35,206 bases of DNA from a bacterium CG_4_10_14_0_2_um_filter_33_32 (GCA_002792735.1 PFOW01000012.1:1-35206); one strand, 5' to 3'. Positions 1,738 through 20,100 are shown, counted from the stretch's first letter. The notes: generated from the letters alone by a model not told the origin. Numbers and translations are program-made.

Positions 1738-1995
1738 TCGCAACAGATGGGAGACTCTACGAATAGAGCCGGTTGCATCAATAGCTCCATGTAATCCAGG
1801 TGCCCAGATACGGATTACACTTCCTCGCTTCTCTATATAAACTTAACAATTTAAATAACCGCTGTATAAAACCAGCGGCTACTAAGAAAAAGTAGTTGCG
1901 CGCCGGTTTCACCCTAGCTCGCCGCACCCCATTAGGTGACCAATAGATCATTTTATATAAATGATCGGGAAGCGGGTCATAGCTCGCTACTTAAT
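1738..1995 (-). promoter_or_regulatory. structured 5' leader, riboswitch-like, unassigned class
   Basis: About 285 nt lie between the promoter and the first codon of the wall-hydrolase operon, clearly richer in G+C than the neighbourhood. Read on the minus strand: a hairpin GATCATTT/AAATGATC (1934-1958 area) with an internal loop closed by TGACC/GGTCA; then AACCGGCG (1908-1901), which can pair over 8 bp with CGCTGGTT (1877-1870); and CCGCTG (1878-1873), which can instead pair with CAGCGG (1864-1859), followed by TTATTT. The last two helices use the same bases and exclude one another, like an antiterminator/terminator pair. Further on are TGTAATCC/GGATTACA and a CTCTA-TTCG-TAGAG tetraloop hairpin. 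I could not match it to a known riboswitch. c-di-AMP (ydaO) switches often control wall hydrolases, but their core motifs are not seen here. Confidence 0.55.
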
Positions 1996-10526: not shown

Positions 10527-11912
10527 ATGAGAAAGATTAATATTTGATTATCTATCTTTACTGTTTTTATAGGTTTGGTTACATTATTTTTAATCATACC
10601 ATCTTTTAATAAACCATTAGCTCAAGATGAAGGCGTTTTTTTAAGTATAGCCGATGGTATTTCAAACGACAGAATTCCATATTTGGACTTTTTCGATCAT
10701 AAGCCACCCGGTATATATTTTCTTTTGGCGACTGTTTTGTTATTTTTCGGGAAAAATATATTTTTTATAAAAATTATTCTTTTATTATTTAATATTCTTT
10801 CTGCATTTTTTGTTTTTTTGTTTGCCGAAAAAATTAAAAAGGGAATCGGACTGTTAGGTTCCTTTCTTTTTTTATTTTCCCTTATATTTTTCGAGGGGAA
10901 TTATATTATTGCCGAACCTTTTATGGTTACTTTTATACTATTCTCTTTTTATTTTCTGCTGAAATATTTCGATAGTGATAAAAACTATTATCTTTTATTA
11001 GCTGGTTTTACTTCAGGATTAGCTCTTTTATTTAAACAAACAGCTATAGTAAATTTAATAATTTTTCTTTTCTTTTTATTAAGCGAAAAAAGAAAATCAA
11101 AGGATGTATTTTATTATTTGCTGGGTGTTATTATTCCTTGGCTGTTTGCCTTTCTTTACTTAATCGATAAAGGAGCCTTAAAAGAATCAATAAACCAGAT
11201 CATTGTGCTTAATTTTACAAGCTATCCGAGAGAACCATTGCAAATAGTTTTAAATTCCTTTATTGAAACCGTGAATAGAACTTTTCCTGCTTGGTTATTT
11301 TTTATAATTTATTTTTTTCAAAAGAAAAGTAAGAATACTGTGTTAAAGAAAATGATTCTGTTTTCGATAATTTTGCCAATACCTTTTTTCCTTGTAAGGC
11401 ATTATCCGCATTATTGGATTCAGATTCTCCCTTTTGTAGCAATTCTATCCGCTGCTGCTTTATATAATTTCTTTAATCAAAGAAAGAATATTATTTTTAA
11501 ATTAATAGTTTTTTTAATTATAAGTTTAAGCGTTTTCGGTAACTATAAACTATTTGTCTGGATTACTGATAATATAAATATACCTAAATTAAAAGAGCAG
11601 AATAGCGCCAAAGAATTTATAGATAATTTGCCTAATAAAAAAATTTTAACAGAAAATCAATTTACCTGTTTTTATTTTTTAATCGATAAAGAAAAAATTA
11701 CTAAATATCTTTATATAACCGAGGTTAATGATGGAGAGAAAGCAGAGCCAAAAACATTAGAATCTTTAAAAAGTAACCCGGATACTTATATTTTATGGAC
11801 AGAAGATTTGAATTTCGCGTATGCTAGGAAATTACAGGATTATATTATTAAAAATTATAAGCCGATTCGTAAGTTTGATAATCTAGGGCTTGTAGTTTAT
11901 GAAAAACCTTAA
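10527..11912 (+). CDS. GT39-like polytopic membrane glycosyltransferase with in-frame UGA at codon 7
   Basis: A multi-pass protein of 461 aa resembling PMT_2/ArnT-like lipid-linked-sugar transferases. The first loop has the acidic motif PLAQDEGVFLSIADG and the typical PYLDFFDHKPPGIYF; about ten hydrophobic segments follow and a soluble C-terminal part ends the protein. ATG at 10527, at leaderless distance from TATAAT, opens MRKINI, then TGA (10545-10547), then LSIFTVFIGLVTLFLIIPSF. Only by reading this TGA is the first transmembrane helix preceded by a normal charged N-terminus. Otherwise translation would have to start at TTG 10575 inside the helix, without a visible ribosome-binding site. 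It probably moves a sugar from a polyprenyl carrier onto protein or glycan outside the cell. It converges on the next gene with a 4 nt overlap. Confidence 0.75.
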
Positions 11913-13996
11913 TAGACTACTACCGCTGAGTTTCCAAACCAGCCCCATTTTGCCTTAAAGGTTCCAACGTCAAAAGTTCTGCCAGGATAACCATAGCCTG
12001 AATCATTTACCATAAAAGAAGTTGGGTTATCGATAGTGCTCGTAAAGCCTTTAACAACTTGTACATGAAGAGAATTTACTCCTCTTACGGTTTTTCCTCC
12101 AGGGGTTTTCCAATATACTTCATAGGCTGGTCATACGCCATTGACCCACCATACAATTACAGGATTTCCGTTTGTTATTTCTTGGGCAATGCCCTGTACA
12201 CTCCATCCGCTTTTAACACTTGTACTGCGCCAACTGGACATGGCTGCGGCAGTAGGACCCCAGTATGCGCCATACCTCCAATTTATACCTCCGGATTTGC
12301 CATCAACATTTCCGACTATACCGGAATAAGGATCTCCCCAGATAGAATTTGGATCTCCCCATGTGCCAGAAAATGAAGTCTTATCATAGCCAATAGTATT
12401 TAAAATTGTATTTTCTGAAACATACGCTCCTTTATAGGCTAAGGCCATTCTGGCAGCAGTTGCATAACATGAATAATTATGTCCTTGTCTATAAGAAGGT
12501 ACATTTAAAATCACAGTTTGTGCTTTTGTAGTAAAGGAAGTACTAAATGGCTGTATAGAATCTAAGCCGTTTATTGTTTTAATTCCAGTATCAACTCTTG
12601 CTGTATATGTTTGACTAAATCCTAAAGTATCATGAGAAAAAACCATAGCGTTTCCGTTTCAAGAAAAGCTTCCATTAACAGAAGGCCAAACGCTGAACCT
12701 ATTTTGAGCAGATCCATGATCAACTGCTTGGTTAAATGTAATGGTGATTTTTGTATTGGGATTAACACCATTAGCGCCATTTCAGGGTGATAGTTTAGAA
12801 ACCGTAACATATCCTATTGTTGTGAAGTTAAACTTAAAATCTTCCGCAAGCGAAACGCTATTCAAAGATTTAGCTGATTTATTTATAGTAATTTCATATT
12901 TTGTATTTTTAGCAAAATCGGATTTTTGAGTAAACTTAAGGGTACGGTTATTATCCCAAGAAAGGTTACGATCTATTTTCGGATTGATGGAAAAAGCAGA
13001 TTCAGCTGATGTCTTATCTATATCTTGCTTAAATTTAATTTTTATAGGTGTATTAGCTAGCACACCCGCACCCGTGGGTGAATAAGATTCTATCCCGGAA
13101 GCGTCTATTGTTCTAAAATAACTATTCCATATTTCCTGTTTTTCGCTTGCTGAAGTTTTTTCCTGGTTTTTATAGTTGTAGCTTATTAAATTTCTGTATA
13201 TTTTAAAGTTATAATCAGTGCTTTTTTTGTATTCTTCTTTTGGTTTTAAAAGGTATCTTACATCACTTTTTTTCTCTGTATTAAATTCTAGCGGAGGGTT
13301 TGATTCAAAAGAGAACTCAGCTAAATGTTCATGGGGGTAGTCAGTTTCAACTATGATATCTTGTTGTGGAAGAATCTCCTTGCTTCCATCTTTTGGATTA
13401 ACTAAGGTTACTTTTGGAGCTGGAGCTATTTGCATACTGAACATGTAATTTTTCTTTTTTGTTCCGAAAATACTCTTGATATTATTTACTGAAACCGTGT
13501 AGCGGGTTTCCATTTTTGGCGACTCTTTAGGAACAAATTTTAGCGTTTGGGAAAAATCCAATAAGTTATTTGAAAATTGCCAATCGCCGTCTATCTTTGG
13601 ATTTATTTCATATTGTAGGATTTTTTTATCAATAGGTTTGTCAAATTTTATTGTAAGCGGTTTTTTATCTGATATTTCAGTTATCCCGAGTGAGGGTTCG
13701 GTAGGAAATAATATTTTTGGTTCCGGCAAGGTAATTCCTAGAGAGCATAATATTAATCCGATAAAAAAAATAATGTTAAATATAACTTTCTTTTTATGGC
13801 TGCCAAACAGAAAATGATTTATTTTATATAAAAATTTTTTAAAAGAATGTAAAGTTTGTGGATCTAGGACATTTTTATTTTTTTTAATATGCGTAAATAA
13901 AATTACCCCATTATAGAGAAAAAATAGGGATAGCATAATGATAAGCGCTATACTTTGATGTCTGACATTAATTACGAATTCTACTACCTGTTTCAT
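11909..13996 (-). CDS. membrane-anchored Ig-like / C39 peptidase protein with three in-frame UGA codons
   Basis: Read through three TGA codons (12782-12784, 12659-12661, 12131-12133; codons 405, 446, 622), the frame runs unbroken to TAA at 11909 and gives 695 residues. Two transmembrane segments (about 14-36, 70-92) precede several SbsA/Big_5-like Ig domains, including IKIKFKQDID and ITITFNQAVD. A papain-like C39 domain ends the protein: Cys510 in QGHNYSCYATAARMAL, His644 in NSLHVQVVKGF, and N664/D665 in MVNDSGYG. The His and Asp lie after the third TGA, so termination there would remove half the active site. The second TGA aligns with Trp in the preceding Ig repeat (NLSWDNN versus FS-X-NGN), which favours Trp. 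The gene follows the deacetylase fusion by 3 nt in one operon. Role: extracellular peptidase, perhaps maturing surface proteins. Confidence 0.75.
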
Positions 13997-13999
13997 GGA

Positions 14000-16987
14000 T
14001 TAATCCTTATTAAGCCAATTTTTGTAAACGTCTTTTAGTGTTACGTATATTACTGGACCAGAGTCTTTTTCGTATTTGAATCCATCAATATAATTAAAGA
14101 GGTTATTTATTTTATCTTGTTCTTTTTTATTAAACCAGTGGGGATGGGAAAGGAACGTTACTTGTTTTCTTTCATTCAATGTCCCGCTTTGGTAGTTGTT
14201 ATTAAATCTATCTATCATGTCTTTAGATTGAAACCAATACGAGTCAGCTCCGTTATTCGGAATTTCCCACAGCTGTAAATTATTTGCGGATGATATATTT
14301 TGGTTGCCTATTGATGGTTTGTAGGGTTGTGTTGTTGGAGATAGCTTCCATGGTCCAACTTGTTTTGTATACCCACTATAGCCGAAATCATAAGCGGTTC
14401 TTCCGGATGAATCGATTTTTATGCCTGTTTTTTTTAAAGCTTTCAAGGTATCAAGATTTGCAAACCATCCGCCTGCCCTAAATGACATAGGCTTTCCTAG
14501 TCCTTTCTGATCAAACCACCATTCTGCTCGATTAATCAATTGAACTATTTTTTCTTCCGTGTAGTTAGTTGTTAGCACAGAGTAGCCATCTTTATATATA
14601 TCACCCCAATTAGGCCAGTCAGAAGCATATTTTGGATTTAGCCCAGCATCTTGTATAAAGTCATAAAACATATGCAGATGAAGCCCTATTTCATCTCTGT
14701 TGTTTTTACTTCTGTTTTTTACCCAATCAGTGATATATTGTTGTCTGTTTACCGGAATCGTTGATGTTGTGTATATTCTTGGGTTAAACATATGGGTAAG
14801 CGGTATATTATATTTTTTTGAAATATTATTAATAGAATCAAGGTAAGAGTTTGATACGTCATAACCTTCCCAGTCAAAATTCCATGTTACATATAATGGA
14901 TAAGATACATAGAAACCGCATTTTTGACTTTTATATTCTTTATCTCCATCATTTATAGTTACCTGTACTTGGTGAGTGCCAGGTAAAAGATTATTTATAG
15001 ATATATTTCCTTTCCAGTAGTTTTTATCCATATTTTCCATTTCTGTTTCAATGTTGCTGTCTATAATTTTATATTTTGCTTTTGGACTCTTTAGATTATC
15101 GTTACTGCTGATTGATAGTTTAAGTTTATTATCTGCAATTGGATTATCTGATATGAGTGACCATTTTCTTTCGACCTTTGCCAGTAGCGGGTAACTTCTT
15201 TCTTCATTTATTGATGATTGATATTTATATTTCCAGGGTTCCGGACTTTTATTTTCCGCTACTTGTTTGTTGGCGGCAAGATTTCCATAGTAAATAAATA
15301 CTTTATTTAATTCTCGGCCAGCATTTATTGGTTCAGGATTTTTGAATCTTAAAGTCGTATTATTTAAATTCCATTTGTTCTCAAGCCAGTAATCAATGTC
15401 CTGGTATTTTTTTCCGTTCCAGTAAACTATTTTTATATCGTTTCCGTTTGGAAGAGCCTTATCTTGTTTAACCATTGATTGGTGATCAAAAGTTACTTTA
15501 ATCACCTGGTTTTTAGGTATACTGCTGAATGACTCTAAATTTTTAATACTAATTTTTGTATTATATTCATACTCGTCGTTCCACCAAGACGATTCTGATT
15601 TTATAGCTTGGTTGCTTACGACTTTTTTTATTTCCTGAGCAACGCTCGTTAAGGCCGAAAAAGATAATATAGTTATTAATATAGAAGCAACCATAATATG
15701 TCTTTTTTTGATTATTCTATCTTGTCTAAATCTATTTTTGCTCCCAGAGAATAATCTTTTTAAAAAGCTCATTTCTTTTTCTGCATCTTCATATATTTCT
15801 TCTTCTAAGCGATACACAGTTTTCGTTTCTTTAATCTCTTGTTCGTCATGTAATCCTTTGTGGACATTAAGGCTGAATCTTAAATTGAATGGGAGAATGA
15901 TTGCAAGTGCTATAGAAAATATAAGCAGAACTAAAAACAAAAAAGAAAAAATCATTATTGAATCTGTTTTTACGCCACCCGAAATTTCATATAACTTTAG
16001 AAGAAATATGTGAATCCAGAATACCGCAAAAGCATTTTGTCCAAAAACAAGCAAAGTATCTCGTATTGCCGGTAAGTTTTTTAACTGTTTTAGCAGATAG
16101 AATATATAGTTTAGCAAAAAAGCAAAAGCAGTCCCTATTAGAAGAAAAGGTATTGATGGCGGTCACCTTAAAAAGAGGATATCAAATGGCTTGAAATTAA
16201 TATTAGCCGCAATTACTGCAATCAGTATTTCTATGGCCGATACTATCGCAAGAAACCTTGATATTTCTTTTTTATGGTGAAGTTTTTCTGTGGTTCTAAG
16301 CCAATGGCCCCAAGACATTCCCAAAATAAATATCGGGGCATATTGTAAAATGGGGAATCTAAAATATCCTTCACTGCCAGCCAAAAATGCTTTCCATGGT
16401 TCGAAAAATTCAGGCGCTTTAATCCCATAAAGAAAAAATCCGGTAAAATATAAATAAATTGAGATAATTATAGATATCGGTAAAGAGTTGGAAAGTTGTT
16501 TTAAGAACTTGGGGAATATAAAAACTAAAAATGAGTAAAAAATAAACGGAGGAATGAATTCTGTATATGAAGGAAGTGCTCTAAAAGTTAATATATCTAT
16601 AATTAATTTCCATTTATCCAAGGTCTGGCTTGCAAGTATTTGGCCTGATGAGACAAAAAAAGCTAGTAAATAATAAGACCCAAGGATTACTAATAGTCTT
16701 TTTAGCAGCTTTTTTCTTGATCCTATAATATATTCTTCATGTTTTATATATGCGATATAGGAAACTGCTCCTGAAACCAAAAGAAATACAGTAAAACAAA
16801 CTGTATTTCCAATTTTTTCCATCCCTAATAACAAGCTGTTTGTTGAATTATGAAAGAAGTAAACCGAATGAGCCAAGATCATCAAAAGAACCACCGATCC
16901 TCTCAGTAAATCTAATACAAAGTACCTTTTTCTAAAATGATGTGTCATGGCTTGCTCACATATAACTACTTCTATATTATTATACAT
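14000..16987 (-). CDS. acyltransferase - DUF2341 - polysaccharide-deacetylase-like fusion with in-frame UGA
   Basis: The frame is open for 995 residues apart from one TGA at 16163-16165 (codon 275). The N-terminal part is a polytopic acyltransferase of the DUF1624/heparan-glucosaminide N-acetyltransferase or acyltransferase-3 type (RYFVLDLLRGSVVLLMILAHS). The TGA falls in FLR-X-PPSIPFLLIG, where this family often has an aromatic residue before PPS. After more membrane helices, residues from about 440 are extracellular. A DUF2341-like domain starts at WWNDEYEYNTKISI. A NodB/deacetylase-like barrel follows, with TWNFDWEG, metal-type HLH in DEIGLHLHMF, FRAGGW and SHPHWF. The architecture suggests acetyl exchange on a surface glycan. 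An internal ATG at 16948 (MTHHFRKRY) is an alternative start. Confidence 0.75.
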
Positions 16988-19674: not shown

Positions 19675-20058
19675 GGGGCTGATCAGCTTCGACGTAAGTT
19701 CTTTAATAGTTTTAAATTGCAAATCGAGCCGAGTTAACTCGCTAAACTGATTCAAAAACTTCAAGTGCAAATTCACTTGTTAGCAAAGTAAAAGCTGCTT
19801 TTAGCGGCTTGAGCTTTGCGCCAGCTGTAGTTTAATTTCTATGGCCGTCTGTCATTCCAGCTCCTCGACTGAAGTGAACAGGCGTCATTTTTCGAGGTGC
19901 TTTTCGGTTGTATCTGTAAGCCGAAATTAAGATTCACAGGATAAGGTTAGTTGATTTTGTTTGTTTTTTACAGCTAACCCGAAAACAAAAAACAATCTAA
20001 ATTTGTAGAATGTTTAAAGCTATGCTTACGGACGCGGGTGCGATTCCCGCCAGCTCCA
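19675..20058 (+). ncRNA. ssrA: tmRNA
   Basis: The 5' end GGGGCTGATCAGCTTCGACG and 3' end GGACGCGGGTGCGATTCCCGC-CAGCTCC-A form the tRNA-like domain; GGGGCTG pairs with CAGCTCC over 7 bp with one G-U. The resume codon is probably GCA at 19767, 93 nt from the 5' end as in other tmRNAs. It opens a 22 codon tag beginning ANSLV and ending FAPAVV, with stop TAA at 19833-19835. The tail APAVV differs from the usual LAA/VAA degron. CCA is not encoded (the 3' end is followed by TTT). It rescues stalled ribosomes and tags nascent chains for proteolysis. The 3' end is repeated downstream. Confidence 0.93.
20046..20058 (+). repeat. tmRNA 3'-end core, left copy of 13 bp direct repeat
   Basis: CCCGCCAGCTCCA, the 3' T-arm/acceptor of the tmRNA, recurs exactly at 20523-20535. 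tmRNA 3' ends are classic integration sites, so the pair looks like attL/attR flanking a 0.5 kb segment with the GIY-YIG gene. Confidence 0.65.
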
Positions 20059-20100
20059 TTTCTCGACAAGCTCGAAATAGACCAAAAAAAGCTTGCCGGA

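Follow-up and report, generated by a model that had tools for sequence, protein, structure and literature searches.

The Absconditabacteria/Gracilibacteria read UGA as Gly (translation table 25), and in readthrough of the Q-beta coat gene a near-cognate tRNA-Trp decodes a leaky UGA. Reassignment of UGA to Trp has been reported for the Patescibacteriota family JAKLIH01, in which RF2 and UGA stops are absent and a tRNA with a UCA anticodon occurs in two of the four genomes (Fakih et al. 2026, PMC13092985). In-frame stops have also been described in prokaryotic genes under purifying selection, mostly interpreted as alleles that are short-lived at the scale of populations (Belinky et al. 2021, PMC7918605), and the same source gives UGA as leaky, being read as Trp at about 6% in B. 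subtilis. Three neighbouring genes of a further genome, in which five in-frame TGA codons occur, are compared here with these systems.

The source genome (907 kb, 81 contigs, 97% complete, 0.4% contaminated), that of an uncultured, ultra-small bacterium, is placed in the Patescibacteria, a scan of named genomes yielding a single relative, Ca. Berkelbacteria L135; all comparison genomes were from the same phylum, and none was closer. The window, meaning the whole stretch of DNA analysed (35,206 nucleotides), is contig 12. Approximately 75% of the genome was sampled, as stretches, together with ~0.8 Mb of the relative G142, with which the source genome (G000) has a median protein identity of 48%. 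For the codon census, true genes were used as queries, giving 97,239 aligned codons of the source genome against G142. Viral contigs were scanned as well, and none proved to be a relative. Elsewhere in the window lie a c-di-GMP-II riboswitch (1758–1841, minus strand; 75 bits, E = 2e-15), which adjoins small minus-strand genes and is possibly unusual for a reduced Patescibacteria genome, and a tmRNA (19675–20061, plus strand) with a long tag peptide, ANSLVSKVKAAFSGLSFAPAVV.

Translation bore out the original prediction of five in-frame TGA codons distributed over three genes (Table 1), and the frames are otherwise open, with no TAA, TAG or frameshift inside them (~6.4 kb). Domains had also been expected to continue across the TGAs, and the Pfam matches do span or adjoin the sites (Big_5, Peptidase_C39_2, PMT_2 and HGSNAT_cat). 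The GT39-like frame matches PMT_2 (E = 3e-15), the C39 frame Big_5 (2.6e-30) and Peptidase_C39_2 (4e-19), and the N-terminal piece of the acyltransferase frame HGSNAT_cat (1.3e-6, above cut-off); the deacetylase half gave a weak match that fell short of the cut-off (Polysacc_deac_1, E = 0.08). A TATAAT sits just upstream of the GT39-like ATG, a position compatible with a leaderless start.

Table 1. Frames and in-frame TGA codons of the cluster (window coordinates).
Feature	Position	Strand	Remarks
GT39-like membrane glycosyltransferase frame	10527..11912	+	461 aa; open only with TGA at codon 7 read through; from translation
TGA in frame, GT39-like codon 7	10545..10547	+	
Membrane-anchored Ig-like (Big_5) and C39-family protease frame	11909..13996	-	695 aa, three TGAs
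TGA in frame, C39 codon 405	12782..12784	-	SP-X-NGAN
TGA in frame, C39 codon 446	12659..12661	-	GSFS-X-NGN
TGA in frame, C39 codon 622	12131..12133	-	VNGV-X-PAYE
Acyltransferase (HGSNAT/DUF1624-like) and polysaccharide-deacetylase-like frame	14000..16987	-	995 aa, one TGA
TGA in frame, acyltransferase-deacetylase codon 275	16163..16165	-	FLR-X-PPS

Orthologues of the C39 protein (50–38% identical) are without stops, and across several genomes of the phylum no stop was found inside the domains of either these or the acyltransferase-deacetylase orthologues (51–38% identical). Stops reported by the search in the G142 orthologue were dismissed, as the G142 alignment has none, and those reported in the G280 orthologue sit in an inter-domain linker and interrupt no domain. 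The residues at the aligned positions agree with the expectation that Trp fits best at FLR-X-PPS and FS-X-NGN: codon 275 of the acyltransferase is TGG in all eight of the closest orthologues (W, rarely F, in the rest), and codon 446 of the C39 gene is TGG in all five of the closest, and the more distant ones have W wherever they can be aligned at this position. The alignment adds a third Trp site at C39 codon 622 (TGG in the five closest orthologues, variable in distant ones). At least three of the TGAs probably derive from the TGG of a conserved Trp codon by a G-to-A change. At C39 codon 405, where a small residue such as Gly had been proposed, the orthologues carry GCA, GGC, GGA, TCA and GCT (Ala, Gly or Ser), so that Trp is not ancestral there; a reading of UGA as Gly from this codon was rejected, the other conserved sites being Trp. 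The few orthologues of the GT39-like protein show no common residue at codon 7 (V, L), and the Ca. Berkelbacteria L135 orthologue has RKITI at the same place. The RK-I-I stretch at the start of that protein matches, so the codon 7 TGA is probably within the true gene and the N-terminus that contains it probably belongs to the gene.

That the TGAs cluster in three adjacent genes could point to programmed readthrough or recoding limited to the cluster by a local signal, selenocysteine included. However, the aligned sites in relatives are sense codons, mostly Trp, the five TGAs share no 3' context (the next base being T, A, A, C and C), structure downstream of the five sites was nowhere better than in shuffled sequences (z = -0.4 to +1.4), and the search for a tRNA-Sec returned none over the cut-off. 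This option, one of those raised by the original prediction, is considered very unlikely.

Outside the cluster UGA acts as a stop, as had been anticipated: it terminates 96 of 641 sampled genes, 24 of which end where the G142 orthologue ends. In the samples of both the source genome and G142, roughly 70% of the genes that end in TGA have a start-like codon overlapping the stop (ATGA, GTGA or TGATG). Where G142 has Trp, the source genome has TGG 366 times and TGA three times (97,239 codons), all three in the cluster; the proposed count of UGA in conserved genes, which covered ~75% of the genome, found no TGA at a Trp-aligned codon elsewhere. A search for prfB and for a UCA tRNA had likewise been suggested, and the first part was answered clearly, with an RF2 of 358 codons that carries the SPF and GGQ motifs and is without internal stop (RF1 is also intact). 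The second part returned no tRNA with a UCA anticodon, from a set in which tRNA-Asn and tRNA-Phe were also unseen and which is therefore incomplete, making the absence of a UCA tRNA weak evidence. The Trp columns, the UGA stops and RF2 rule out a reading of UGA as Trp across the genome as a whole, as far as the sampled ~75% shows.

UGA-as-Trp genomes do exist in the phylum, JAKLIH01 being the example (PMC13092985), and the cluster could have been imported or mis-binned from one of them. Against such an origin, the C39 and acyltransferase genes adjoin, with TGG, in several standard-code relatives, 46 Trp codons of the cluster are still TGG (~10% of its Trp-like codons are TGA), and the contig has tmRNA and tRNA-Val genes and a GC content near that of the genome. 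The idea of transfer from a UGA-sense genome has accordingly become extremely improbable.

Interior stops are concentrated in the cluster beyond what chance would give. Five convincing interior stops were identified in the 97,239 aligned codons, of which four, all TGA, lie in the C39 and acyltransferase genes (Fisher P ~4e-7, rounded denominators). The fifth is a TAG at a Trp codon of a copper P-type ATPase (L188:10143; contig C55, about 50143), at which an 85%-identical gene in G058 has TGG. The differences between these two genes are concentrated at third positions (283 vs 40 at second), and, given an identity of 85% to G058 despite ~48% between the source genome and G142, the ATPase was probably recently transferred.

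Further interrupted genes came from coding-potential scans, in which most candidates for TGA-joined genes were antisense shadows. A DNA methylase at the end of contig C68 (L131:154-777, minus strand) contains a single TGA, at a position where the G103 and G022 homologues (63–65% identical) both have Trp; its C-terminus departs from theirs. The hrcA gene at the end of contig C32 (L112:6284, minus strand), upstream of an apparently intact grpE-like gene, has TAG in place of the Gln codon of QPHTSAGRIP and what looks like a frameshift towards its C-terminus, and two adjacent decayed glycosyltransferase genes on contig C16 (L104:11200-13100, minus strand) contain TAA, TGA and frameshifts. In addition, a small predicted membrane protein (L120:4503-4898, plus strand; contig C48), for which there was no Pfam match, has an in-frame TGA. 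The supposition that in-frame stops are confined to the cluster is contradicted by these genes, among which is a UAG at a Trp position. Several accessory genes across the genome are thus interrupted by nonsense codons, with all three stop types represented, compared to TGA only within the cluster; the changes at a known Trp comprise five TGA and one TAG, a bias that is not significant (P = 0.11).

The TGAs could instead be errors of the consensus, or alleles of a minority strain, in a metagenome-assembled genome. Fragmentation into 81 contigs is in keeping with such an origin, as are the positions of the hrcA and methylase interruptions, no more than about 350 bases from the edge of a contig, and the compatibility of most lesions with a known ancestor codon with G-to-A or C-to-T change. 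Conserved genes are otherwise clean, however, with one other convincing interior stop in the aligned codons and about one credible frameshift, the cluster is mid-contig, and five errors of the same type in 6.4 kb would be unlikely. An artefact or strain mixture is considered improbable.

The composition of the lesions was evaluated by enumerating single mutations of the three cluster genes, among which TGA accounts for 27–29% of nonsense changes. Five TGAs out of five would occur with P = 0.0014–0.0022 under three neutral models, values that overstate the case, as the finding was picked out because of its TGA-only pattern. The original prediction had argued that decay should give UAG as often as UGA; inside the cluster this argument retains some force, while genome-wide it fails, given the Trp-to-TAG change in the copper ATPase, the TAG in hrcA and the TAA and TGA in the glycosyltransferase genes.

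The C39 and acyltransferase genes have not accelerated, with distance ratios of 0.92–1.02 for pairs that include the source genome and 0.88–1.01 for other pairs, although this test compares the two genes with each other and has little power for very recent loss. Their identity to G142 (~50%) is near the genome median. In both genes the invariant Cys, Asp, His, Asn, Arg, Gln and Ser are all kept, and three of 21 invariant Trp are lost, every one to TGA. Changes at invariant columns of the C39 protein lean from GC to AT (13:2, compared to 16:14 in other taxa; P ~0.05), and the lean persists at 11:2 without the two TGAs (P = 0.09), a weak excess of the kind expected of unselected drift. Overall, the constraint data fit working genes or very recent loss alike.

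If the genes are functional, UGA may have a dual meaning, in which a near-cognate tRNA-Trp(CCA) competes with RF2 (an incipient capture) and the effect is so far visible only in weakly expressed accessory genes. Trp in the orthologues at three conserved sites is consistent with this, as are the TGA-only lesions of the cluster and of its invariant Trp, the intact active-site residues of genes that have not accelerated, and the lone TGA at a conserved Trp of the methylase on another contig. The sole tRNA-Trp found is also suggestive: its anticodon is CCA, its anticodon stem has five pairable positions with a weak top (A27-U43, G28-U42), and its U11-A24 pair is the state created by the Hirsh G24A suppressor in E. 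coli, the Hirsh and 27-43 suppressors both being cited in PMC13092985. Yet relatives whose orthologues use TGG have the same U11-A24 pair and CCA anticodon, and a Hirsh-like A24 was rejected as a special cause. Furthermore, three UGAs in one gene demand efficient reading, which the 96 UGA stops and the intact RF2 oppose, the other Trp-aligned codons include 366 TGG and no TGA, and codon 405 is Gly, Ala or Ser in relatives. TGA at first seemed to be avoided where a long open extension follows in frame (P = 7e-4), which might have reflected such reading, but the signal vanished once stops coupled through ATGA, GTGA or TGATG were separated (P = 0.23). A dual meaning of UGA in working genes is regarded as unlikely, though as a serious rival, and it is doubtful that capture of UGA is just beginning in this genome, with an ordinary tRNA-Trp(CCA) keeping the surface cluster working while RF2 and UGA stops persist and UGA has two meanings in one cell.

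The explanation that is somewhat favoured is that this bacterium uses the standard code and that Trp codons of its accessory genes have recently mutated to stops, an effect perhaps softened by leakiness of UGA. As UGA terminates normally in the rest of the genome, the cluster genes are most likely freshly broken and not evidence of a new code; we infer that they are silenced, and recently. Nonsense decay needs no mechanism and the same genome supplies other examples of it, whereas efficient passage through three UGAs in one gene would call for a mechanism of which the analysis gave no sign. Against decay stand the all-TGA pattern, the lack of a frameshift in 6.4 kb, the absence of acceleration and the retention of the invariant residues. 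Under recent decay UGA would still terminate and the cluster genes would mostly yield truncated products. The C39 product would end within the Ig region, before the protease, the acyltransferase product would end within a membrane-rich segment, and the GT39-like product would end after six residues or restart downstream. Leakiness at a level of a few per cent, with the ordinary tRNA-Trp reading UGA, may make these mutations less harmful and favour TGA over TAG among the survivors.

If the genes are dead, the cluster offers a clear view of how genes are lost from a reduced genome at a very early stage, while their active sites are intact, and a caution that TGA-only interruption does not prove recoding. 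Live genes would make the cluster a naturally occurring intermediate in the reassignment of a stop codon, in a phylum where a full change of UGA to Trp has just been reported, and one tRNA and five codons would then allow a direct test of the idea of an ambiguous intermediate.

Compared to known systems, the nearest match is to the otherwise intact, constrained genes interrupted by stops of PMC7918605, from which this locus differs in having five stops of one type in three adjacent genes. The cluster resembles JAKLIH01 in its phylum and in having UGA at Trp positions, but the source genome has RF2 and ends genes with UGA, and the search of its incomplete tRNA set gave none with a UCA anticodon. 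The Absconditabacteria/Gracilibacteria are likewise Patescibacteria with UGA as a sense codon, though here the conserved sites are Trp and UGA is a stop genome-wide. With leaky-UGA systems the source genome shares a tRNA-Trp(CCA) with U11-A24, and Trp would be the residue inserted; unlike in those systems, three UGAs in one gene would have to be read, for which known background levels are far too low.
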